From: Verrucomicrobiia bacterium
GTDB taxonomy: Bacteria > Verrucomicrobiota > Verrucomicrobiia > Opitutales > Cerasicoccaceae
Length of the DNA: 64,000 bases
Direction: 5' to 3'
Assembly: GCA_030425485.1 (NCBI GenBank)
Contig: JAUIAM010000001.1
Coordinates: 62,001-126,000, forward strand
Every line of letters starts with the position of its first letter. Positions within the stretch are counted from its first letter, which is position 1. The notes below the pieces were generated by a model. The model was not told the DNA's origin. It saw nothing but the letters and a program-made list of their open reading frames with translations, and did not search any database. Both the position numbers and the translations under genes were made by a program. Positions 30,965 through 62,344 of this stretch are shown here, in pieces.

Positions 30965-31052
30965 TCCTCGGCGCGAGTATTTTTCGTCTATTTTCGATCA
31001 CATTTCTACAGGCCAATTACCTGAACCCTAACCCACAAAATAACGACATATC

Positions 31053-31784
31053 ATGAAAGCAAAATTATTCCTCACTTGTGCCGCTATCGGCACCTTGCTG
31101 ACCGGAAGTGCTCTGGCCAACATCGTAATCAGCTCCGAAGCTCCCAGCGAAGGTGTTTATAAGTTCCAGGACGTGGTCCCGGACAGAAGCCCCGCCACCC
31201 TCCGGTTCTCCAATAACCCGACGACCAAATGGCAGAGCCTCGGTCAGGGGTTTTCGACTATTGGCGCTGAAGACCCGCTGAATCTCGACTCCGTCAGCTT
31301 TCTCATGATGGACTACCTCTCGGGCGTAGAGGGCTTGACCCTGCGCATGGATGTCTATCAGGGCGGCTCTTCCAGCAACGCTCGACCCATGGGTGACAAT
31401 GCGACTCTGATCTATACCCAGGACTCCGACCTGCCCGCCTTGCTGGAGAACGACAGCTATCTTACCTTCAACCTCGATTCTAATCTGGAACTGGATCAGG
31501 ATAGCTACTTCTCGGTTGCGCTTTCCTTCGTTGACCAGACTCCGGGTACGACCAATGAGGGCATTGGGTTGGCTACGATTGCGTCGGGCTCTCCCCCAGT
31601 TAGCAACACGATCGGTGGTAATCGGTTCATCTGGAACGGGGAATTCTACAGTGCATCGACCACCAATGGTTTCGTCATGTACGTCAACACCAGTGCCATT
31701 CCAGAGGCTTCTTCCATGCCGCTCGGTGTTGGTCTCATGGCCTTGGGCCTGGTCGTAGTCGCGCGTCGCCGCCGTAAGGTTTAA
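31053..31784 (+). CDS. PEP-CTERM sorting domain protein (module 2)
   Basis: A 243-residue secreted protein. The signal peptide ends at ALA (residue 22). The body is a beta-rich domain without a known name, with FSTIGAEDPLNLDSVSFLM and a LTFNLDSNLELDQDSYFSVALSF stretch split over two strands. The C terminus has IPEASSMPLG, a hydrophobic helix and ARRRRKV, a PEP-CTERM variant with PEAS. It is 88 bases after the pseudopilin gene and 98 bases before a DUF4091 enzyme. It may be a surface binding or structural protein. Confidence 0.82.
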   Translation: MKAKLFLTCAAIGTLLTGSALANIVISSEAPSEGVYKFQDVVPDRSPATLRFSNNPTTKWQSLGQGFSTIGAEDPLNLDSVSFLMMDYLSGVEGLTLRMDVYQGGSSSNARPMGDNATLIYTQDSDLPALLENDSYLTFNLDSNLELDQDSYFSVALSFVDQTPGTTNEGIGLATIASGSPPVSNTIGGNRFIWNGEFYSASTTNGFVMYVNTSAIPEASSMPLGVGLMALGLVVVARRRRKV

Positions 31785-46895: not shown

Positions 46896-46924
46896 CGGAG
46901 ATAGGTATGCAAGACATATGACTT
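46896..46924 (+). promoter_or_regulatory. 29-bp motif, copy 1 (before the GH fragment)
   Basis: CGGAGAT at the 5' end, TGCAA at positions 13-17 and CTT at the end match the module 3 motif without gaps. CATCAT precedes it as in copies 2 and 4. It overlaps the first ATG of the fragment at 46918, which suggests that the original leader and N-terminal coding sequence were deleted. Confidence 0.6.
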
Positions 46925-47523
46925 TTAAAAGATTCACAGGATGTCCATGCTGTGGAGCTCTCATGGCGGAAGATGCCGAAGAAGGTGCCTATCCCCTTTT
47001 GTTAGATCAAGAGAGTACACCTGTCCTGCGTTCTGATAACGGACAGCTCGTATGGGATCGCAGCAACCCTGAGGCGGGCCTGATCACGATTGATACTCCT
47101 AAAACGAAAGTACTGCTAGGCTATACAGCGGGGGAGCCGGTCGAGTTTGATGGCCTCAAGATTGAAGCGACTGATGACGAGCGATGGCAGATTATCGGTC
47201 TGACCGCTCAGGACGATAAGCCGCTGAGAAAGAGTGAGCACATGCTGCTCGTAGCCAGTGGCAACTCTGAGAATACAGATATGGGCTGGACCAGTGAGGA
47301 AAAAGTTTCGGTCGCAGATAATTGGGGGGAGGCGCCTACCCTTATCGAGGTGATAGAAGCGCGGATACACCTGAAGCATCCAGGCCAGATTCGAGTGTGG
47401 GCTCTGGACGAAACGGGTGAGCGAGCCGAACCGATAGCCGTGCAGCGCGATCGAGACGGATTCCATGTATTCTCCATCGGTCAGGATGCGCCCACCCTGT
47501 GGTATGAGATCGAAGCAAAGTGA
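46918..47523 (+). pseudogene. Truncated C-terminal fragment of a glycoside hydrolase
   Basis: A 201-codon frame whose residues ~35-200 match the last ~168 residues of the intact protein at 48089, with blocks such as GLITIDT, KTKVLLGYT, WQIIGLT, WGEAPTL and IRVWALDETG in the same order. The first ~34 residues (with GCPCCGALM) do not match. The catalytic barrel, carbohydrate-binding domain and signal peptide are all missing, so this is most likely the remnant of a tandem paralogue. It could still be read as a small protein, since its frame is intact. Confidence 0.75.
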
Positions 47524-48088: not shown

Positions 48089-50782
48089 ATGAACATACTA
48101 CCCCTCCAAATACCTATCCAAGCCACCCTCAGACGACTATCTCGATTAAGGCTGTGCATGACGTTATCGCACTGCGCAGTTGCTGTCGGCACTGCCCATG
48201 CGGCGGATATGATCCCGTTTACCCTGCCTTACGATGATTCCTCGAACAGCATCGTCAGCCGGGCAGATACATTGAACGCGCCAGCGGGTAGCATGGGGCA
48301 TATTACGGTTGGCCTCGATGGTCATTTATACGAAGGCAGTGAGCGCATACGCTTTCTAGGCTTCAACCTCGGAGCCGTTTCGAACTTCCCCCTTAGCCAT
48401 GAGGCAGACGATGCGGCCGCACGTATGGCCAAGTTTGGGATCAATATCGTGCGCTTGCACCAGATGGACTTCGGTTGGGATCCCTCAGAGCGCAGCATAT
48501 TTGGCGTGGATGAGGATGACTCGCTTGAGCTGGACGAAGACTCCCAGGAGCGCCTCTGGTACTTGGTGGAAAAGTTGAAGGAGCAGGGCATTTATGTGCA
48601 TATTGACTTGCTCTGTTCGCGTCGATTTTGGACTGCCGACGGTTTGCCGACTTCGATAGACACGCTTTCAAATCACCAAAAAGAGGTTCAACGCCTGGCT
48701 TTGTTCGATGAGGATATGATCCAACTGCAAAAAGATTATGCGGAGGACTTACTGAGCACAAAGAACCCCGTTACCAACTTGTCGCTGGCGGAGGATCCGG
48801 TGGTCGCATTCATTGGAATTAACAACGAGAACAGTTTGCTGACGATCTGGCAGGAAGGCTTCAGTGGCAACTTGAGCAAGCCGGGTGCTGCCAACCCCGT
48901 CGAGATGCCTTCAGAGTTTGCGCTTGATCTGCGTAGCCAGTGGAATGACTGGTTGGCCACGCAATACGCCTCTAACTATGCACTAAAGATAGCTTGGAAA
49001 GTGGACGCTGCGGGCAGCAATCTAATCCAGAATGGAGACTTCAGCAATGGTTACTCCGGCTGGGATACGTATCTGCTACAGGGCGCCGATGCGGATTACA
49101 ATATTGCCTCTTCGCCATTCGGAGCGGCGGCTGAGGTGGATGTGACCACCAGTGGGCCCGATATCTGGTCCGTCCAAATGAGACAGGAGCTGTTCAGTCT
49201 GGATTTGGACAAAGGGTACATCCTGCGTTTCAAGGCACGTGCGACCGAGCCTCGGGATATTCGGGTACGTATGCATAATGGTGATGGTCGGGCGAAAACG
49301 CTAGATACCTACATCACACTCGATACTGACTGGCATGAATTCGAGTTCCACCTAATGCCTCATGACAGCGACTTGGGACTCTATCTTTGCGACATGCATG
49401 CTGGGGCTTCCTACTATTATACGGATGTGGAGGTAGTTGCGAGGACGCTGCCCAGCGACCAATCGCTGGATAATCCAAACCAGCCCATCTCTATGTATAG
49501 TAGCAGGCTGTCCGGAAATGCCCTCAAGGACTGGGTCAGATTTCTGTATTACATCGAGTCCACCTATTATGAGGAGATGAGCGATTTCCTGAGAAATGAC
49601 CTGAACTGTGATGCCCTACTGGTGGGCAGCCAGGTCGGGCATTCCGTGTCGAGCCTGATGGCGGAGCTCGACGTGGTCGATACGCACAAATACTGGAATC
49701 ACCCGGAGTTTCCGCCCGGCTACTGGAATACCGTAGACTGGACCGTTGAGAACGAAAGCATGGTCAACGACGATGAATTTGAGCTCGCGGACGAGGCAAC
49801 TTTTCGGGTTTTCGGAAAGCCATTCATTATGTCGGAGTATGACCATCCGGCTCCGTCATTCTATGCCGGGGAGGCACCGATCATGGCCGCCCTCATGGGG
49901 GCGCTTCAGGGCTGGGATGGCATCATGTATTTCAAATATGCCGGTGAAGACCAGGATGGCGGTTGGGATAAGGACCATGTTGACAAATGGTTCCAGTATG
50001 CGCCCCATACAACCAAGATGGCCAACATGATCCTTGCGTCGAACCTCTTTCGCCGGGGTGATTTGAGTGAACTATCACAGGTCGACGATATCCCTTCGTC
50101 AGCGGCTCAAGAGCAAAAGTTCATTTTCGACAAACGCCCAGCTCCATGGGGTGCTGATTTCTACGGCATGCCCCCGGAGAATGCCTTCCACTACCGAGTC
50201 GGGGTAGACCTTGACGAGAACCACCAACTGTACGGAACGCATCCATTCCCCGCGGTGAATGCAAACTACATACACTCGGCGAACGGGGAGTTCATATGGG
50301 ATCGGACTCAGCCCAATGCAGGACTGATCACGATTGATACTGAACGGACAAAGGTGCTTTTGGGCTACACAGAGGATGATGTCATCGAGATGAATGGGCT
50401 CCGCATCAAGACCGTCCGTGAACGAGAATGGCAGATTATCGGACTGACATCGCAGGATGAAGATCCGCTGCCATTAAACGTCAGCCAGAAAATATTACTC
50501 ATAGCCAACGGCAAGACGGAGAATACGAACATGGGCTGGACCGACACGAACTATAACTCCGTGTCGACTAGTTGGGGTGAGGCACCAACCCTGGTCGAGC
50601 AGGTGCACGCTCGTATCAGCCTGGAGCACCAGTACCCTATCCGGGTCTGGGCACTGGACGAAACCGGTAAGAAGGGCGAGGAGATTTGCGTCGGTACCGA
50701 TGCGGAGGACCGCCACGTATTCATGATCGGTGAGGGTGATCCGACTATATGGTACGCCATCGAAGCTCAGGTCGCCCAATAA
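48089..50782 (+). CDS. Secreted glycoside hydrolase with embedded carbohydrate-binding domain
   Basis: An 897-residue protein with a signal peptide ending near AHA (about 38). The catalytic TIM barrel is of the GH5/GH42 (clan GH-A) kind: FLGFNLGAVSNFPL and VRLHQMDFGWD, the acid/base glutamate E247 in GINNENS, and the probable nucleophile E583 in FIMSEYDHP. Residues ~311-452 (LIQNGDFSNGYSGWDTY onward) form a CBM4/9-like carbohydrate-binding domain placed between the two catalytic residues. The last ~170 residues form a beta domain, duplicated as a fragment at 46918. It leads a run with the two-repeat secreted protein (23 bases on) and the pseudopilin. Confidence 0.82.
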   Translation: MNILPLQIPIQATLRRLSRLRLCMTLSHCAVAVGTAHAADMIPFTLPYDDSSNSIVSRADTLNAPAGSMGHITVGLDGHLYEGSERIRFLGFNLGAVSNFPLSHEADDAAARMAKFGINIVRLHQMDFGWDPSERSIFGVDEDDSLELDEDSQERLWYLVEKLKEQGIYVHIDLLCSRRFWTADGLPTSIDTLSNHQKEVQRLALFDEDMIQLQKDYAEDLLSTKNPVTNLSLAEDPVVAFIGINNENSLLTIWQEGFSGNLSKPGAANPVEMPSEFALDLRSQWNDWLATQYASNYALKIAWKVDAAGSNLIQNGDFSNGYSGWDTYLLQGADADYNIASSPFGAAAEVDVTTSGPDIWSVQMRQELFSLDLDKGYILRFKARATEPRDIRVRMHNGDGRAKTLDTYITLDTDWHEFEFHLMPHDSDLGLYLCDMHAGASYYYTDVEVVARTLPSDQSLDNPNQPISMYSSRLSGNALKDWVRFLYYIESTYYEEMSDFLRNDLNCDALLVGSQVGHSVSSLMAELDVVDTHKYWNHPEFPPGYWNTVDWTVENESMVNDDEFELADEATFRVFGKPFIMSEYDHPAPSFYAGEAPIMAALMGALQGWDGIMYFKYAGEDQDGGWDKDHVDKWFQYAPHTTKMANMILASNLFRRGDLSELSQVDDIPSSAAQEQKFIFDKRPAPWGADFYGMPPENAFHYRVGVDLDENHQLYGTHPFPAVNANYIHSANGEFIWDRTQPNAGLITIDTERTKVLLGYTEDDVIEMNGLRIKTVREREWQIIGLTSQDEDPLPLNVSQKILLIANGKTENTNMGWTDTNYNSVSTSWGEAPTLVEQVHARISLEHQYPIRVWALDETGKKGEEICVGTDAEDRHVFMIGEGDPTIWYAIEAQVAQ

Positions 50783-50805: not shown

Positions 50806-52656
50806 ATGAAGTATTTACCCTCGATCCAAACAATGATTTACAACGCAAAGATTGCCAGCCTCATGGTTGTGGCAATGATACTGTGTTCGACTGCCAGCTC
50901 TGAGGTTTACAACTACAAGCGCATCGGCGAAGACAGTAATGGTAAATGGGAGGATAATTGCAAGTGGGACCCGGTCCCGGATTTCTTTATCGGTGGAAAT
51001 TGGATCGCTCACTGGGAGCCTGGCAATAACACCCGGACAGACAGCGTGACTATCGATGGTGCTATCGTGAGTAGCCCTTACAAGTATGTGGCATTCAAAA
51101 TCCCATACAACGCGACAGAGCAAGCGGGGAAAAACGGGACCTATACCGCTCTTACGCTTACCGACGATGCCACGCTCGAATTAGGCGCATTTCAGATCAG
51201 CTCCGCGTCAAGCAATGGCGCTGAGTTTGTGCGCAATGCGGACATACAGTCGGGCTCCAGCCTGTCCGTTATCGAGCTGACTACGGGAGCACAAAACAAT
51301 ACCCAGAACTGCAGTACCTGGAACATTGCCGGTACCGTTCAGGCTGGATCCTTCCAAGGCTTGCTTGGGTATCATAACTCGAACGGTGGGTATATTCTCA
51401 ATGTCGCTGGTGGCAGCCTGGACGTCACGAATAGCTTCGACTGGTTTAGCAACGATTCAAGTGAGACCAGCTATGCGAACACATCAGAAGAAGCCATTGC
51501 CCACATAAACCTCTCCAATCGCGGGTCACTTACAGTCGGGACGATGGAGGGAAACTGGACGCATTCGGACGAAGCCTACATCAACTTTATGGATACCTCC
51601 AGTAGCGCGACTTTTGGTAAAGCGAACTTCGTATCCGCAGGAGATATCGAGCAGCTCATTAGCGAAGGGCATATTCGCGTCGACGGGGACAGCGTAGCCG
51701 CTTCGGACATCAAAATAGTGGATAATGGTAGTACATGGACGATCTCTGCCTCTCAGGATACGATGGTCAACCACTTCACCTGGGTGGGGCCAGAAACAGG
51801 TGGTAACTGGAGCGATGAAAGCAGTTGGTACCCGGTGCCCGAGCTTCCGCTGGTTACCGGCTCTGCTGATACGTGGATCGGTGGCTGGCGCAGTGAAAAT
51901 TCGACTAAGTTGGACACGGTAACCATTGACGGTGCCACGATCAACAGTAGCAAGAATCTCGATTTCCGTGTGCATGGTGCGGCGGCGGCGAATAAGGATG
52001 GTACCTACACTTCCCTTACGCTTACGAACAACGCATCGCTTACGGTTGCTGATTTGCAAATCACCACTTGCCGCATTGACGGGATAGACTATATCCGCAA
52101 TGCGGACATTCAGGCGGGATCCAGCCTGAATGTTGATGAGCTTATGACGGGCTCCTCTAATTGGACACCCGCCACATCGAGTAGCACTTGGAACATCGAA
52201 GGTTCGGTCCAGGCAGCTACGTTCAAAGGCCAGTTTGGCACTTACTACATCGTACCTGCAATGCAAGTGGCTGGTGGCTATATCCTGAATATCAATGGGG
52301 GTAGCCTAACCGTAAGCGGGGATTTTGACTGGAACTATAACGACTCCCCGGCCCATCACACCCCTTCGCCAATGGCGATCGGTCGCATCAATATCTCGAA
52401 TGGTGGAACATTCTCGGCGGGTACGATAGATACCAACTTGGGATTTTCATCGGAATCCTACCTTAACTTTGCCGACGGCACGGGCAGCGCGACCTTTGGG
52501 GTGACGGAAGATCTGGATACCGCCCAAGATATTGCATCTCTGATAATTCAGGGGCATATCCGTATCAACGGATCTCCGAATACTCCCCTTAATCAGTTCG
52601 ACATCGATTTGGATAATACCGAGCAAACCTGGACTATTAGTCCCGCATCTGAATAA
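50806..52656 (+). CDS. Secreted protein with two tandem copies of a ~290-residue beta domain
   Basis: A 616-residue protein with a signal peptide (about 1-32). Residues ~35-320 and ~321-616 are two copies of one domain. Each starts with a W-x-P-V-P segment and continues through TDSVTIDGA or DTVTIDGA, NADIQ-GSSL, TWNI-G-VQA and GGYILN--GGSL. The same domain occurs once in the PEP-CTERM protein at 54929. This protein ends without a PEP-CTERM signal, so it should be released or held by partners. It resembles the Gly/Asn-rich beta-helical proteins of Verrucomicrobiota; function is unknown. Confidence 0.78.
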   Translation: MKYLPSIQTMIYNAKIASLMVVAMILCSTASSEVYNYKRIGEDSNGKWEDNCKWDPVPDFFIGGNWIAHWEPGNNTRTDSVTIDGAIVSSPYKYVAFKIPYNATEQAGKNGTYTALTLTDDATLELGAFQISSASSNGAEFVRNADIQSGSSLSVIELTTGAQNNTQNCSTWNIAGTVQAGSFQGLLGYHNSNGGYILNVAGGSLDVTNSFDWFSNDSSETSYANTSEEAIAHINLSNRGSLTVGTMEGNWTHSDEAYINFMDTSSSATFGKANFVSAGDIEQLISEGHIRVDGDSVAASDIKIVDNGSTWTISASQDTMVNHFTWVGPETGGNWSDESSWYPVPELPLVTGSADTWIGGWRSENSTKLDTVTIDGATINSSKNLDFRVHGAAAANKDGTYTSLTLTNNASLTVADLQITTCRIDGIDYIRNADIQAGSSLNVDELMTGSSNWTPATSSSTWNIEGSVQAATFKGQFGTYYIVPAMQVAGGYILNINGGSLTVSGDFDWNYNDSPAHHTPSPMAIGRINISNGGTFSAGTIDTNLGFSSESYLNFADGTGSATFGVTEDLDTAQDIASLIIQGHIRINGSPNTPLNQFDIDLDNTEQTWTISPASE

Positions 52657-53433: not shown

Positions 53434-54672
53434 CTATTCTCTTCCGTTGGCTTGACGGTATTGGGCAGGCGTCATGCCAGTCTGCTTCTTGAATACGATC
53501 CCGAATCGAGTATCGCTGGTGAAGCCGCATTCGCTGGCTATCTCATACATTTTCTTGTTTTGCTCGATGAGGAGATGCTTGGCTTTTTCCATCCGCTTTC
53601 GGGTAATTTCTTCGGCGATGGTATGCCCCACGTGTTTGCGAAAGGCGTCATGTAGGCAGCGGTATGACATTGGTACGATTGAAGCCACGCTCTTGGCGTT
53701 GATCATACGAGAGTAGTTTTGCCATATGTACTTTAAAATAGTTCGGACATGGGGATGCTGGATCGTAAGCATGTCTGTGCTCTGCCGCTTCATTACACTT
53801 TTGGGCTGGACGAGAATCGGCTCATCCGGCGCAGCTTCCCCGTTCATGAGCCTGTCAAGCTGTGCGGCCGCTTCGTAGCCTTCCATCTCCTGATTGCTGT
53901 CGATGCTCGAAAGCGGGATGGGGGCGAAGTCGCAGCGCAATGTGTCGTTGTTGATGCCGAGTATGGCAACCTCCTCTGGAATCCGAATCCCTCGCTTTAT
54001 GCATGCCTGCATGACTTCGATGCCGACTTCGTCATGTTCAGCCAGGATGGCTAGTGGCTTGGGTAACTGCGAGATGTGGTCCCCGAGCCAATCCAGGAAT
54101 TGAGACTTATTGTAGTTTCTGTCCCCGTAGTTATAGGAACCTTTCCAATATATGCCGTGGAATCTTCCTCCGGCTTTTTCGATTTCCTTTTTTAAGGAGA
54201 GTCCTCTCAGGCGAGTCGAGGTGAACTTTCTGTTTGATCGGCTACAAAACGCTGCGTGCCTGAACCCCTGCGTGATGAAATGTTCTGCTGCAACTTGCGC
54301 TATTCCCGAGTGATCCGTTCGCACAGTTGGAGCCCCAGGGATGCGAACGTCGCCTATGTTAACGACCGGGCACTGTTGCTTAGCTACGAATCGATATAAA
54401 TTGGTGTTATGATATAATTGAGAGATTATGCCATCGCCCTGCCAGTTGGTCGGCGCGGTAACGCTCCGGGTCATGCTGACATCCAAAATCCAGTTTGCCT
54501 GTTTCGCATAGCGCGCGATGCCCTTATGCGTTCCCGTTGAATACCAACTGAGTGCTAGTAGAATGGAAGGTCGGTTAATGAGTTGCGAGGTTGGCTTCGA
54601 TTTACTTGGAACTGCTTTTGATTGCTTACGAGCCGCCTTCTTTCCTCGCGGATTCTTCTTAGCTGTAGCCAT
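53434..54672 (-). CDS. XylR-type transcriptional regulator (LacI sensor, AraC DNA-binding)
   Basis: A 412-residue regulator. A Lys/Ala-rich N-terminal tail (1-30) precedes a type 1 periplasmic-binding sensor (~34-290), with LALSWYSTGTHKGIARY, AEHFITQGFRHAAFCS and ILGINNDTLRCDFAPIPLSSID. AraC-type helix-turn-helices follow (~305-408), with MYEIASECGFTSDTRFGIVFKKQTG. This is the layout of E. coli XylR. It binds a sugar and should control glycan genes nearby; the 29-bp motif copy beside its own start suggests autoregulation. Confidence 0.9.
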   Translation of the reverse strand: MATAKKNPRGKKAARKQSKAVPSKSKPTSQLINRPSILLALSWYSTGTHKGIARYAKQANWILDVSMTRSVTAPTNWQGDGIISQLYHNTNLYRFVAKQQCPVVNIGDVRIPGAPTVRTDHSGIAQVAAEHFITQGFRHAAFCSRSNRKFTSTRLRGLSLKKEIEKAGGRFHGIYWKGSYNYGDRNYNKSQFLDWLGDHISQLPKPLAILAEHDEVGIEVMQACIKRGIRIPEEVAILGINNDTLRCDFAPIPLSSIDSNQEMEGYEAAAQLDRLMNGEAAPDEPILVQPKSVMKRQSTDMLTIQHPHVRTILKYIWQNYSRMINAKSVASIVPMSYRCLHDAFRKHVGHTIAEEITRKRMEKAKHLLIEQNKKMYEIASECGFTSDTRFGIVFKKQTGMTPAQYRQANGRE

Positions 54673-54863: not shown

Positions 54864-54892
54864 AAAAAAACCGACCGGAAGAGTCCGGTCGG
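54864..54892 (-). terminator. Rho-independent terminator after the PEP-CTERM gene
   Basis: On the minus strand CCGACCGG pairs with CCGGTCGG around a 6-base loop, followed by seven T. It lies 37 bases after the stop codon of the leftward gene at 54929. This is a classic intrinsic terminator. Confidence 0.85.
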
Positions 54893-54928: not shown

Positions 54929-55900
54929 TTAGTGGTGTGCTTGACGTCTACGGAAGGTGATGCTGAGGGCTACGAGTGCGCCGAAGGCAAAGGCGACGTT
55001 TGAGGGCTCGGGGATGGTGGAGGTGATTTCCCAAACTGATCCGCCGTCGTTGATTTGGAATTCGGTGGGCGAGATGGCGCCGTTCAGGCGAATCTGTCCG
55101 TTGTCGATCAGAGCCTGGACATCCACGATCGTATCGAAGTTTGTTTTACCAAAGGTCACGCTACCCGTGCCATCGAGGAAGTCAATGTAGGTGTTAGCCG
55201 ACTCGGACCAATTGGCGGTCATGGTGCCGGCAGAGATCGTGCCGCCGTTGGAGAGATTGATTCGGCCATTGGCTAAATTTTCTTCGTCAATACCGTTCGA
55301 GTCCCAGTTGAACGTGCCAGCGACTGTCAGGCTACCACCGTCAAGGTTGATAAAGTAGCCACCGGAAGCTTGGGCCGGGAAGAAATTACCAAGGAGCCCG
55401 TTAAAGTTGGCTGCCTGGACGGAGCCGCCAATGCTCCATGTGGTGCTCGATGTGGCGGGTGTCCAGTTTGATGAGCCCGTTGTGAGCAGGTTGACATTCA
55501 AGCTGGAGCCCGATTGGATATCCATATTGCGGATATAGTCTATACCGGAGCTGCGTGAGCTGGAGACGCGAAAATTACCCGCGGTGAGCGAAGCATTGTT
55601 ACTGAGGGTGAGAGAGGTGTGAGTCCCTTCCTGGCCAGATAGCGGGTTGGCCCCCGGGACAAGGTAGAATTCAAGAGCGTAGCCGCCTGTGGTGACCGAG
55701 GCGCCATCAATGGAGACGGTGTCCAGATTGGTTCTGTTAGAACTTCTCCAGTCGGCGATCCAGGTGATTTGGGGAGGTGTAACGGTTGGTAAGTCTGGTA
55801 CCGGGGTCCAGTTGTTTGCAGTTTTCCAATCGCCACCCGAACTGGGGCCAGTCCAGTCGTAGTTCATGATTTGTGCACTGGCTTGTGAGGTGAGCAGCAT
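54929..55900 (-). CDS. PEP-CTERM protein, single beta domain, broken signal peptide
   Basis: The open frame from 55900 gives 323 residues starting MLLTSQASAQ, which is only the end of a signal peptide. The body is one copy of the beta domain found twice in the protein at 50806 (MDIQSGSSLNV, SSNWTPATSS, GGSVQAANFNG). The C terminus has IPEPSN, a hydrophobic helix and FRRRQAHH, a PEP-CTERM signal. Upstream the same frame continues with a normal signal peptide start, interrupted by one TAA (see 55901-55969). As read from 55900 the protein may not be exported, so the gene may be inactive unless the stop is bypassed or is a sequencing error. Confidence 0.75.
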   Translation of the reverse strand: MLLTSQASAQIMNYDWTGPSSGGDWKTANNWTPVPDLPTVTPPQITWIADWRSSNRTNLDTVSIDGASVTTGGYALEFYLVPGANPLSGQEGTHTSLTLSNNASLTAGNFRVSSSRSSGIDYIRNMDIQSGSSLNVNLLTTGSSNWTPATSSTTWSIGGSVQAANFNGLLGNFFPAQASGGYFINLDGGSLTVAGTFNWDSNGIDEENLANGRINLSNGGTISAGTMTANWSESANTYIDFLDGTGSVTFGKTNFDTIVDVQALIDNGQIRLNGAISPTEFQINDGGSVWEITSTIPEPSNVAFAFGALVALSITFRRRQAHH

Positions 55901-55969
55901 GCCTGCGGCGATCAGGCACAGAACTCCAGTTGATGCTTATAGCATGTTGGTTGAGGGCGTTTTACTCAT
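55901..55969 (-). pseudogene. Upstream part of the same signal peptide with in-frame TAA
   Basis: In the frame of the gene at 54929, codons from ATG 55969 read MSKTPSTNML, then TAA (55937-55939), then ASTGVLCLIAAG joined to MLLTSQASAQ. Without the stop this is a typical signal peptide: basic start, hydrophobic core, cleavage after ASA. The stop therefore interrupts an otherwise complete 346-residue protein. Confidence 0.65.
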
Positions 55970-56148: not shown

Positions 56149-57672
56149 TTAACTGTTGTTATCCTGCTTCAAGTACTGGTTCATTTCTGCCTGAAGTGCC
56201 TTTACCGTTTCTTGGTACTCGGGGTCCTCAGCCAGGTTGCGGGTTTCGAGAGGGTCCTCTGCGTAGTCGTAAAGCTCGATCTGAAGCGGATCTTGGGTTC
56301 CGTTTGCGGAGCGATCCACATTATCTGTCTCATACCAGGCGATAAAGCGGAAGCGCAGAGTGCGCATGGCGTAGCCCACTTTATTCCAGCGGGGGTACTG
56401 GCTCATGACGTATTTGCGTGTGGTGCTGTCCGGTACTTGCATGAACGGCACCAGGCTGAGGCCGTCGAGCTGGCTGGGGATGCTCAATCCGGCAAGTTGA
56501 CACACGGTGGGGTAGACATCGATCAAGCCCACGGGTTGAGTGGTTTCCTTGCCTCCGGATATGCCGGGTGAGACGATGATGAGAGGCACATGGGTGGCCT
56601 GTTCGTAGTTCGTATGTTTGGACCACTGGCCATGGTCGCCCAGGTGCCAGCCGTGGTCAGAAAGCAGAACGATAATCGTATCATTTTCCAGCCCGAGCGC
56701 TTCGATCTTACCAAGTAGTTTGGCAATTTGCGCGTCGATATAAGCCGCGCAGGCGTAGTAGCCGTGGATCAGCTCGCGCTGCATATCGGCAGTTAGCGGG
56801 CCCTCCTCCGGGATTCCGCTGTAGGCGCGAAGCTCGGGCCAGTGGTCCCAGCTGAAGTCGGGACCGTTCACGGGTTTTTCCTGATAAGATGCCAATTCGA
56901 TCTTATCGGCATCGATCATGTCCCAATATTTCTTGGGAGCAACGAAGGGCAAGTGTGGTTTTGAGAAGCCGACGGTGAGAAAGAAGGGCTGCTCCTCTTG
57001 CGATAGTTCGTCGAGTAAGCCAAGCGCGTATTGGGTCATCGCACCATCGAAGTAAGCGTTGTCGGGCACATCGGAAGATTCTACCGCCGGCTTTGCGCCT
57101 TTATCCGCCATATACTTGTTCAGTTCACGCCAGTGGGTGATGCCTTCCGCTTTGGCCTCCTTCTCGACTTTGCGTATATCGTCGCCCTGATATCCATTGG
57201 CTGGATGGCCATGGTCTTCATTGTAGTGTTTGGCTATTTGCCAGTTTTTGGTATAGGGGTAGCTCCAGGACGCGGTATCCATGCCCTTATCGACATTGCT
57301 GCCGGTAAAGACCTTGCCCATTCCAATCGAGGTGTAGCCGTGTTCTTTAAAATACTGGGGCAAGGTGACAAGGTCCGGAACAACGGCGCGTAGATTTGCC
57401 TGGGTGTCCCAAACCTGTGTCGTGTCGGGGCGCAGACCTGTCATCAGGCTGGCGCGGGAAGGTCCACACACAGCTTGCTGGCAGTGGGCATTGAGAAAGG
57501 TCGTGCCGCTGGCAGCGAGGCTGTCGATCGCCGGGGTGAAAACATCGCCGCCAAAGGCGCTCAGCTCGGGCTTGAGGTCATCGACGATGATAAAGAGTAC
57601 GTTGGGTTGTTTGGCAGATGCTCCGTTCAAGAAGAGAGCAAGAGTAGCAACGATGGGGGTTAAAATCTTCAT
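56149..57672 (-). CDS. Sulfatase, iduronate-2-sulfatase-like
   Basis: A 507-residue S1-type sulfatase with a signal peptide ending at ASA (residue 20). C69-G-P-S-R73 is the formylglycine motif, and NVLFIIVDDLKPEL gives the metal-binding aspartates. QQAVCGPSRASLMTGLRPDT and LLSDHGWHLGDHG match the iduronate-2-sulfatase-like subgroup, which removes 2-O-sulfate from uronic acids and related sugars. It would act outside the cytoplasm and needs an anaerobic or FGE-type maturase encoded elsewhere. A 29-bp motif copy lies 69 bases before its start. Confidence 0.9.
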   Translation of the reverse strand: MKILTPIVATLALFLNGASAKQPNVLFIIVDDLKPELSAFGGDVFTPAIDSLAASGTTFLNAHCQQAVCGPSRASLMTGLRPDTTQVWDTQANLRAVVPDLVTLPQYFKEHGYTSIGMGKVFTGSNVDKGMDTASWSYPYTKNWQIAKHYNEDHGHPANGYQGDDIRKVEKEAKAEGITHWRELNKYMADKGAKPAVESSDVPDNAYFDGAMTQYALGLLDELSQEEQPFFLTVGFSKPHLPFVAPKKYWDMIDADKIELASYQEKPVNGPDFSWDHWPELRAYSGIPEEGPLTADMQRELIHGYYACAAYIDAQIAKLLGKIEALGLENDTIIVLLSDHGWHLGDHGQWSKHTNYEQATHVPLIIVSPGISGGKETTQPVGLIDVYPTVCQLAGLSIPSQLDGLSLVPFMQVPDSTTRKYVMSQYPRWNKVGYAMRTLRFRFIAWYETDNVDRSANGTQDPLQIELYDYAEDPLETRNLAEDPEYQETVKALQAEMNQYLKQDNNS

Positions 57673-57889: not shown

Positions 57890-58624
57890 TCAGTTGGTCT
57901 GTTGGGTGGTGTGCAAAGATTGGTTGATAGTTTTTACCCGAATGGACCTTTCAGTTTTTCCAGGCAGGAGGAAAACGATTGTGCGGACATTTGGGCCGTG
58001 GCTCCATGTGGATCGACGTGCCAGTTGCCATCCGTCCTGAGTGGATGCTGCGATCTGGATAACAACGCTTGCTTCGTCATCGGAAGAGAAGCGAAAGAGA
58101 TGCTCGGCGCGTTGCTTGATCGTTACGGGGTCTTCTTCTCCAACTTTCACAGCCACGGCAGTGGGGGAGAGGTTAAACATGCGCCACGAATTTTCCGGAG
58201 CGCGACTGAGGCTATCGTCGAGCACGTGAACGTTGTATCGCCCAACTTCCTGCTTGTTCTCTGCAAATAATAGAAGAACTTCCTTGCCGGAATATCCTGT
58301 CAGGTTAGCGGCTGCGACGGGACGCTTGATTGTTTGCTCTTCGGCTCCGGCCTCGCGGACATAGAACACTAACTGTGGTGGGCCAGTGTACTCTTTGGGT
58401 GTTGAGCGCGTAACGGTCGAGGTCCAGATCATTTGGGCTTCACCGTCGCTGTCAAAATAGAGGTTGTTAACCGGACTATCCAGGCTCAGTGCCGTGAAGC
58501 GCACGGACACGATCTCTTGTTGCTGAGCCGAGAGCACGGTTGTGCCAAGGAATAGAGTCAGGAGGATGGGGTGGAGATAGACGTAGCGAGGGTAATACAT
58601 TTTAAAAAACGGTTGGCTAGCCAA
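57890..58624 (-). CDS. Secreted protein of unknown function, next to the Verru_Chthon-A-like gene
   Basis: A 244-residue protein with an N-terminal signal: YLHPILLTLFLGTTVLSAQ (about 17-34). A start at the in-frame ATG 58600 (MYYPRY) would give a more usual signal length. The mature part is beta-rich, with LVFYVREAGAEEQTIKRP and EVLLLFAENKQEVGRYNV. I do not recognise the family. It is 43 bases downstream of the large PilX-like gene on the same strand, so the two are probably co-transcribed. Confidence 0.65.
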   Translation of the reverse strand: MASQPFFKMYYPRYVYLHPILLTLFLGTTVLSAQQQEIVSVRFTALSLDSPVNNLYFDSDGEAQMIWTSTVTRSTPKEYTGPPQLVFYVREAGAEEQTIKRPVAAANLTGYSGKEVLLLFAENKQEVGRYNVHVLDDSLSRAPENSWRMFNLSPTAVAVKVGEEDPVTIKQRAEHLFRFSSDDEASVVIQIAASTQDGWQLARRSTWSHGPNVRTIVFLLPGKTERSIRVKTINQSLHTTQQTN

Positions 58625-58667: not shown

Positions 58668-60104
58668 TTAAATGTCGCTCTTAGTCAGCCAGCGGAAAGA
58701 AATGATGCGGAACCTGCGATTAGCGTCGCGGGCCAGGTGATCCTGTCCATGTACGGTTTCTTCGGGCATGCGTTGAACCACGGCCTCGCACCAAGCTTGG
58801 GTATCAACGTTCCCGGTGAGGGGGTTAATGCTATCGCCGTAACTGCGAATCGTAAACGTGTCCGAGCGAGCGGTCATTAGGGGGCCGAGAGTTTGGAGAA
58901 TGTCGGCCTGTGTCAGGTAGCCCGGAAAACCGCTGGTTGGAGCATTGCCATTAAACTGGTTGTGGGTGATGCCGCTGGGGGAGGGAGCGCCGCTATAGGC
59001 ATCGGCGAGAACGGCATCGTTCAGTCCGGCCCTGTTAACGGCCTCCTGAAGTATTCCGGCGCGGGCAGGTCCATTGTTGGGAGCATCTTCCAGCGGGCGA
59101 TTGACAAACTCGGCCAGTGAGGAAAAGGGCTCTCCACGCTGGCGAATGAGGGCGACGATCTCTGTGGCCAGGGCTTGGGTTTCGGCATCATCGAGTGCAC
59201 GGTATCCGCGCCAGAAAGTCATGCCATCGACATCTATGCTATCGTATTTTCCGTCTATCGGGTGCATGAGGCGGGAGAAGACTGCTCCGCTTTCTGTAGT
59301 TGTATTGTTTTGCAGTTCCGCAGTGTCCGGGTGGTAGCTGGGGATTGCGAGGTTACGCGATGAGGCGAGGAAAGCGGCCCATGCTTCGGCCGACGTAGAG
59401 TTGATGTTAAATGCACCCTCAATGGCCATATTTGAGGCGACTTCGTAAAAGGTTTCGCTGTCATCGCCTCCGTCATTGTTCGTCAGATCATCCGGGGAGA
59501 GTCTGGCATCGCGCGATATAAGGCGCAGGCGGTGATTTGGCAGGTGCCCTTTATCGCGTTGCAGGTCTGACAGATTAGCCGGGGTGAGGCCCTGGGGAAT
59601 GCTGGAGAAAAAATAGCTGTCCCAGAGTTGCTGATTGAGCACGTAGCTCAAATCCCAGGCATCGATATTTTTGTCACCATAGCCTGTCGCGTGGAAGTCG
59701 TTAAGATCACGGATACGTGCCGGAGCAAAGCTGTTACCGATAATGTAGCTCGGGTCGATGGTATAGCGGCCTATGTTGGCGTGCTGGAGTGAGCCGAGGG
59801 AGAGGAGAGGCTCGCGCGGGACATCGAATAACGCGGTACGTGCGACGCCGCCTTCGATAAAGTCAACGCTACCACCGGAGAAGCCGGTGAAGCGTCCACC
59901 GGCAGCATCATTGTCGCCAATGTTTCCGTAAGGGTCATCATCAAGATAACCGTAAGCCTGGGTGCCTGCGACCTCGCCGGTGTAAATGCTGCTGGCATAG
60001 AAATTACCGTTCATCTTATCCCACGTCGCGGGGCCGCACATGGCGCGGATGTTATGGTCAACGAGCAGACGGCTTTGCATATGCTCGTCAAATGCTCCTC
60101 GCAT
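58668..60104 (-). pseudogene. Verru_Chthon cassette A-like protein, C-terminal part (after frameshift)
   Basis: A 478-codon frame that continues the protein encoded at 60011-62344 in the -1 frame. It begins in MRGAFDEHMQSRLLVDHN, which joins naturally to the LAGNVQSLG of the first part. It contains NIDAWDLSYVLNQQLWDSYFFSS, NMAIEGAFNINSTSAEAWAAFL and DTFTIRSYGD, all typical of the C-terminal half of Verru_Chthon cassette protein A. The family pairs with pilin-like proteins of unknown export function. With the break, the C-terminal half has no leader and is probably not made as a functional protein. Confidence 0.7.
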
Positions 60105-62344
60105 CCAGAAGCCCCAAGCGACTGTACATTCCCCGCTAGCTGGCCGGGCGAAAGGATATACTGCTTTGTATGGTTGCTGCCATGGCCATCCACGATGGGA
60201 TTGAAATACTGGGTGTGGGATGAACTTGCCGCGATATCATCAGGTTTGCCGTTATGCATGTAGCGGACGCTTGCCCCACTTCCTGTGGCGATGTCGATAA
60301 TTACCAGATCATCGGCAGTCACTTCCAGATAGGTTTTCTCCTTTTCCGAGAGTCCGAACTTATCCGTGATGTTATCTCGATTCTTCTCTCCGTAAACCGG
60401 CCCGATCTCACTCGCGCTAAAGGCGCGCTTCAGGTCGAGGATAAGATGCCCGCTGTCGGGCGCATACTGGCTGTCCTCCTTCTCGGCAGTGCTGAGTACA
60501 AGCAGGTGGAAGTCATCTTCCCGATCGCCATCGCCATCGTCGTAGAGGAATTCACTGCGCGTCACATTTTCCCAGAGGCCATAGAGGCGTGTTTCACCGG
60601 GGTAGAGGTCATTGTAGTATGCACCAGTCTGCCCCTTTTCCCATGGGAGGGTCATTTCCAGTTCGGGGGCGATGTTGCCGGATGCGTCGGGCTCGTCATC
60701 CTCCATGGTGAGTACTTCGCGCATGTAGAAAATAACGCCATCCTGGCCGTCCAGGCCATCTTTGGGTGCGTACTCGCCATCTTCACCTCGTTCTCGCACC
60801 CGTATCCTTATCCATGGTGTAAATGACCAGCGGACTTTGTTTTGCATGGTCCTGCCATACTTGTCCTTTGGTGGATCGAGATGGATGTTATAGGGATTGT
60901 ACAGTGCAACCAGCGGAGCGACCAGCAGTATGGGCGAGTATACGTTCTCCGTACTTTCATCCGGAAGAGTGATGGTATCCACCTTTTCGTAGGAAAGTTT
61001 TATCGAAACCTGAAGGCGTGCCAGGATGGCATTGATCGGACTATTTCCATGATAGCCTTCTTCGCTGCTGTCAGGCTTATATGGCTGGTCTTCGCTCCAG
61101 CTTACAGTCATGGGATATACTGAGCGTGAGCTGTCCAGCGGGATCGGCATATTGGCCGTTGTGCGACCATTGATGACTCCGAGTCTGTCTTTGAGTTGAT
61201 AGAAGGAGCGCAGGTTGGACCAGTTTGGGAACCCGCCTGCCTGGTAGCCGTGATCCTGTAGCTCAACGAAGTAGAATCGATCGGAGTCGTTGTTCCACTG
61301 GCCGAAGTACTTTTCAAAGACGCTGTCGTTCTCAAAGGCGAGGGTCAGGTCTCCGCGAAAGCCTCCCCAGCGGGTATCCGTGAGCAGGCCCATCGAGTAG
61401 GGGCTGAGGTCGTGCCAATGCTCGTTAAGCGTTTGCCGTGTTGCCGAGTCACCCGGTCCCCAGAGGACATTGAGAGCGCTGAAGCTATCGGCATCTTCAA
61501 GCCGCTCATCCGTCCGGTCGTAAATATCTGCGAGCTCGTTGTTGACCGCAGGGTCGGTGGCGGCTGGGAGTTGAAAGGCAAGGCGTGACTTTTCGCCGTC
61601 GGTTGCGTCAAGTACGTCGGGGGTATTCTGAGTCTGGATGCGGGCTTTGATGCCCTCATCACCGACCCACCAGGCGTAGTGTCCGATCGTATTGGTGTCG
61701 CTATCCTTAAGTGGGACTTTGGGGGCGATGACGGCTCCATCGAGGTTGGCGGATGCTGCCTCATTGGCCCCTTTATCGATCAAGGTTGAGGCCCCAACCA
61801 AGTACACGGCAGTACTATTTGGGTCAGAACCAAAGTCCGCGAGGCCACTCATGTCATGATCGGGCGTGTAGTTGAGGTCTTCGCCAGTTGAGGCATCAAT
61901 GCCTTCATTGCCGCTGATGAGCCATGTCATGAGTTCGGATTGCGAGGGGGCGAGGTTCTCAACACTGGGGACGACCGGGTGACGGGTATCGGGGTCCACC
62001 GGGTGATTGGTATCCTCCGGGGGGATGCTCTTCCAAACGCCAGTCCAGTACGCGTTGGGCACGGCTGCGCCCGAACTGATGTCGGACCGAGCCGTTACAC
62101 GCTGATCGGTGCCGGCCGTCCGTTGCAACTCTGCCAAAGCCAGGTTGAGCCCCAAGAGCGCATTCTGGCGGGCCTCAAACATTGTGCTCTGCCGGGTCGC
62201 AAGCTTAAGCTCAACATTGACCAGTGAGGTCAGACTCATCATTAAGAGGACAACAAAGCCCATCAGCATAAGTGCGATGATGAGCGCAAATCCGCGCTTT
62301 CTTGAGGGTGAATTGGCGGTGCTTATAGCTATGTGGGAGCGCAT
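60011..62344 (-). pseudogene. Verru_Chthon cassette A-like / PilX-like protein, N-terminal part (frameshifted)
   Basis: A 777-codon frame. KRGFALIIALMLMGFVVLLM (about 17-36) is a prepilin or PilX-like leader and helix, followed by ARQNALLGLNLALAELQR, as in Verru_Chthon cassette protein A. The last ~30 residues after LAGNVQSLG are out-of-frame sequence. The frame breaks at the CCCC run 60112-60115 (GGGG on the coding strand), where one base fewer would be needed to be restored. The joined protein would be about 1,220 residues, near the expected family size. Other cassette members (B, C, D) are absent from the window. Confidence 0.75.

Follow-up and report, generated by a model that had tools for sequence, protein, structure and literature searches.

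The minus-strand gene between positions 55969 and 54929 of the window (the whole 64,000-nucleotide stretch of DNA analysed) is probably a copy of an exported PEP-CTERM-like gene that was recently inactivated by a nonsense codon in its signal peptide, and it belongs to a duplicated sulfatase cassette that appears to be starting to decay. Overall, ordinary recent decay or an uncorrected sequencing error is most likely what the sequence records here, rather than a new way of reading genes. The features of the gene are the following:

54929..55969, minus strand: PEP-CTERM-like gene in its native frame, 347 codons including both stops, codon 11 being a stop (translation; homology to the paralogue on contig C57 from codon 1)
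55874..55969, minus strand: signal peptide region, 32 codons, starting at ATG 55967-55969 (hydropathy; alignment to relatives)
55937..55939, minus strand: in-frame TAA, codon 11 (translation; homology searches flag '1 TAA' inside)
55898..55900, minus strand: internal ATG where the ORF listing opens the gene; not the native start
54932..55015, minus strand: PEP-CTERM-like tail with IPEPS, hydrophobic helix and RRR (sequence; weak NCBIfam PEP matches; predicted helix 301-322)
54864..54892, minus strand: terminator-like stem-loop and T run (direct reading; stem in the consensus scan, plus strand only)

Read from the ATG at 55969, the minus strand encodes MSKTPSTNML, meets the TAA at 55937-55939 and continues in the same frame with ASTGVLCLIAAGMLLTSQASAQ..., remaining open past codon 11 down to the stop at 54929-54931. 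Translation confirms that the TAA is in frame and is the sole interruption of a complete signal peptide, as the initial annotation had described it. As sequenced, this signal peptide is interrupted at codon 11; in the native frame it is whole and, with X placed at the stop, its best 10-residue Kyte-Doolittle mean is 2.77, the value for the C57 paralogue being 2.03. The 323-aa protein that the ORF listing gives from ATG 55900 has a best-window hydropathy of 0.64, against a minimum of 1.70 in 73 PEP-CTERM leaders of this genome. Judged by its sequence, this product looks cytoplasmic, yet the family is exported.

The position of the native start is indicated by the relatives. The C57 paralogue, located in the same genome, is full-length and has the same leader without the stop; it starts at the same codon distance upstream of the mature protein as ATG 55969, and AAGCTATGA is found around the start codon in both genes. 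The 13 residues A21-Q33, which lie across ATG 55900, are identical in the two proteins, and the 7 DNA differences in this segment are all synonymous. Upstream of ATG 55900, 6 of 21 comparable residues (the first Met and the stop excluded) match the paralogue in an ungapped alignment, a score that 1.6% of shuffles reach. The N-terminus was read in seven relatives, namely the C57 paralogue, the 616-aa gene at 50806, one gene each of genomes G004, G005 and G030, and two of G525. All seven start upstream and possess an uninterrupted hydrophobic leader, which was aligned with that of the TAA gene in five cases; in none of them does the start fall where ATG 55900 lies, and none has a stop where the TAA lies. 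Thus, the TAA lies in the gene's own signal peptide, as had been proposed, and the lesion faces intact homologues. Because the conserved leader crosses ATG 55900 and all seven relatives start upstream of it, this codon is rejected as the native start, and the earlier suggestion of a restart there is in that respect unsupported.

An intact orthologue, which the initial annotation had proposed to look for, was not found when three congeners of the genus were searched with the single protein, and a profile search of congeners gave only a partial match, in G001 (positions 3-174, E 1.7e-6). A pattern scan of the genome contigs for orthologues yielded 36 pattern matches, none of which was confirmed. 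Genomes matching the TAA protein amount to 3 of 10 in the family, 6 of 372 in the order and 44 of 387 in the phylum, the latter mostly through partial matches; where the G005 match is marked '1 TAA', the codon concerned is the end stop of that G005 gene. Two copies of the TAA gene's domain are present in the 616-aa gene (50806-52656), which lacks a PEP-CTERM tail, and five places in one 3216-aa open frame (contig C11:82000-97000) also carry it.

At the C-terminus, the TAA gene displays the PEP motif (IPEPS), a hydrophobic stretch and a basic cluster (RRR). The low-confidence model of the protein is beta-rich with a C-terminal helix, predicted at residues 301-322 (mean pLDDT 68.9), and a structure search with this model found nothing in the PDB at E 0.001 or better. 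No Pfam family is matched at E 0.001, the NCBIfam PEP matches are all below cut-off (best E 0.0076), and neither the TAA gene nor its C57 paralogue is among the 78 places of the genome detected with TIGR02595. An intact gene of the window (31044-31784), endowed with a leader and a PEP-CTERM-like RRRRKV tail, also escaped the TIGR02595 search. The TAA gene resembles the PEP-CTERM/exosortase (EpsH) proteins (Haft et al., 2006; PMC1569441) in its C-terminal IPEPS, hydrophobic helix, basic cluster and native N-terminal leader, and the genome resembles those of that system in its large number of PEP-CTERM genes and in three matches to exosortase (PF09721, over cut-off). On the other hand, the TAA gene differs from that system in being unmatched by TIGR02595 or Pfam and in having a leader broken by TAA. 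When the starts of PEP-CTERM members were re-analysed in that work, 97% of the proteins seemed to have a signal peptide (SignalP site), so that a member devoid of a signal peptide is suspect.

The initial annotation considered the rest of the gene and its terminator intact. The former holds, and a stem followed by a run of seven T is seen directly in the sequence 3′ of the gene; however, the terminator consensus scan lists this stem for the plus strand only, and its count of 2 sites is no excess over a shuffle mean of 1.5. A '29-bp motif' also attributed to the gene was not found in repeat searches, where only copies of the family domain touch the gene. A search for promoter elements at the TAA gene found nothing.

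The PEP-CTERM genes of the genome offer a further standard of comparison. TIGR02595, a short and unspecific model that at E 10 also matches 12 of the 14 control genomes, 2 of them over cut-off, detects 78 places, 60 of them over cut-off, and 73 of the 78 have an in-frame start, picked by eye, and a leader. The other five are an out-of-frame start (C18:63480), an orphan tail (C54:84320), a short frame (C3:29909), and two places, C13:611 and C56:225585, cut by the contig end or the end of the sequence analysed. The short frame (54 aa, below cut-off) may be no gene, while the orphan tail (C54:84320-84391, 48 aa, over cut-off) lies between other genes with no in-frame gene upstream. At C18:63480-63554, on the minus strand, the ATG is out of frame with the signal peptide and an A6 run lies just after the start; this could be due to an error, slippage or phase variation, and a family-level search with the gene gave one long match only, 34% identical, in G009.

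In the light of these 73 genes, it appears improbable that translation begins at a non-ATG codon past the TAA, for instance CTG 55921, and that a short leader still exports the protein. Such a leader would retain a hydrophobic segment (2.54), and start rules in these genes are loose: in only 6 of the 73 is the start preceded, within 20 nt, by a Shine-Dalgarno-like motif, so that their initiation seems largely independent of it. However, the CTG 55921 leader contains no K or R, a condition found in the first 12 residues of only 1 of the 73 leaders; furthermore, 72 of the 73 starts taken (by eye) are ATG and the other is TTG, and no relative read begins at such a position.

We regard as very unlikely the possibility that ribosomes pass the TAA, through a suppressor tRNA or by programmed readthrough, and make the signal peptide in full. 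The frame is conserved on either side of the TAA and a short inverted repeat, ATGCT-ATA-AGCAT, spans it, but the relatives lack a stop there, TAA serves as the end stop of 35 of the 73 PEP-CTERM genes, and the local RNA fold is no better than that of shuffles (z 0.12). Moreover, no UUA anticodon occurs in the 39 tRNAs called from 40 tRNA matches, an incomplete set in which no Asp or Ile tRNA was seen. Hence, neither a suppressor tRNA, within this incomplete set, nor a conserved recoding element was found, and the suppressed termination put forward earlier receives no support. In E. coli both release factors, RF1 and RF2, recognise UAA, and bacterial readthrough is rare relative to frameshifting (PMC5373646). 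Scarcely any more credible is the idea that the interrupted leader described here and the out-of-frame leader at C18:63480 are export switches operating by rare readthrough, slippage or reversion within the signal peptide, in a phase variation of surface proteins. If true, it would represent a new way of varying bacterial surface proteins, but no present evidence requires a switch.

Recent inactivation, the preferred reading, finds a second argument in the neighbouring genes. On the minus strand, the cassette runs from the large gene through the 244-aa frame, the sulfatase and the PEP-CTERM-like gene to a regulator:

58668..62344, minus strand: large Verru_Chthon-A/GspK-like gene, broken (frame change between 60187 and 60116)
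57890..58624, minus strand: 244-aa frame, open, no family assigned (C57 homologue present)
56149..57672, minus strand: sulfatase, intact (PF00884, E 1.9e-48; C57 homologue 66% identical)
53434..54672, minus strand: LacI/AraC-type regulator, downstream (PF13377 and PF12833)

The cassette on C57 contains the four shared genes in the same order, but differs by three extra frames between them, one of which is heparinase-like, and by another type of regulator after them. Of these four, the window cassette has two in broken form, while no break was seen in any of those on C57. The second lesion, absent from the initial annotation, is a frameshift in the large gene (58668-62344), whose first frame comprises 777 codons from 62344 and stops at 60011, the remainder lying in another frame down to 58668. 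Aligned with a 915-codon part of the C57 protein, the window sequence matches in the first frame as far as 60188 (51% identity) and in the second frame beginning at 60143 (70%), the alignment becoming firm at a tryptophan at 60116. On C57 the paralogue occupies one uninterrupted frame of 1230 aa, and 11 other homologues of the genome, among the 12 of 17 matches listed, have frames of 1031-1250 aa; broken members among the listed relatives are G003:C159, with an internal TGA, and G006:C24, with a frame of only 623 aa. At its N-terminus the large gene weakly resembles Verru_Chthon-A and GspK; the likeness to Verru_Chthon cassette protein A (TIGR02600) is confined to residues 18-80, corresponding to the first 63 model positions and scoring 16.8 bits versus a cut-off of 332.3; with no full-length match over cut-off, the name is a label of resemblance only. 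A literature search on Verru_Chthon found no paper. Elsewhere in the window, a 201-aa frame (46918-47523) resembles the last 167 residues of an 897-aa carbohydrate-binding-domain protein (48089-50782; 54% identity), and may be either a short paralogue or what is left of a truncated copy.

The two cassettes have been compared over five segments of four genes. With dS values of 1.49-3.08, near or at saturation, and dN/dS of 0.11-0.22, sequence divergence indicates that they are old duplicates, constrained for most of their history. Changes unique to the window copy versus those unique to the C57 copy were counted against distant outgroups. In the tail of the large gene the counts are 35/27, 30/18 and 31/23, higher for the window each time but never significantly so; in the PEP-CTERM-like gene they are 24/41, 23/38, 32/25, 23/23, 28/29 and 42/39, with no consistent direction, the one significant comparison being against a faster window copy. 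A significant acceleration of the window copy was therefore not detected in these relative-rate counts. Given this age and constraint, and with no significant acceleration of the window copy, the lesions are either recent or base-call errors, and the low dN/dS suggests that the leader was in use until recently.

The main and serious rival to inactivation is a base-call or assembly error, which would account for the TAA, and perhaps also for the frameshift 4.2 kb away, in a gene that is intact in the cell; we deem this possible, although not probable. The TAA is known from one 62-contig draft assembly, the two damaged genes are intact and under constraint apart from their lesions, and a further PEP-CTERM gene loses its frame at an A6 run, such runs being typical sites of sequencing errors. 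On the other hand, errors seem uncommon in this assembly, since the other 73 readable PEP-CTERM starts and the 11 large-gene homologues among the matches listed are open. The clustering of the lesions also speaks against an error, though the locus was not randomly chosen. In the two families surveyed, 2 lesions were counted over roughly 99 kb (based on approximate gene lengths). At this density, P is 0.015 for two or more within 9 kb, and a cautious baseline raises it to 0.14. Because the locus was chosen for its TAA, the conditional probability is also given: with the TAA taken as given, P is 0.15 for another lesion in the remaining 8 kb (0.44 on the cautious baseline), which slightly lowers the odds of inactivation. 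The occurrence of two lesions in one cassette thus points only modestly to a local cause.

Taken together, these data favour recent inactivation among the four options that the initial annotation offered, with sequencing error as its serious rival, and leave ATG 55900 as the native start, as well as suppression, unsupported. Inactivation is supported by a leader that is homologous to that of C57, present in all seven relatives and typical of PEP-CTERM places (73 of 78). The reasons for preferring it are the second break within the cassette and the presence of an undamaged paralogous cassette. Against it count the modest clustering, the lack of significant acceleration and the remainder of the TAA gene, which is free of decay. 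Recent bacterial pseudogenes include nonsense-inactivated genes whose downstream frame is still intact. The TAA gene is similar in its single early stop, intact remainder, intact paralogue elsewhere and second broken cassette gene, and differs in that its TAA is known from a draft assembly alone. In the sequence, the native frame from ATG 55969 encodes a signal peptide homologous to the intact C57 leader and is cut by the TAA at codon 11. Under recent inactivation, ribosomes starting at ATG 55969 would release a 10-residue peptide; any product from ATG 55900 would carry no export signal and remain inside the cell. A separate frameshift interrupts the cassette's large gene, and the intact C57 cassette would make the loss tolerable.

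The finding matters mainly for annotation, in which the TAA gene should be entered as disrupted or checked against reads. The window copy of the sulfatase/PEP-CTERM cassette is probably not fully functional, so that the intact C57 copy is the better basis for predicting what this bacterium degrades.
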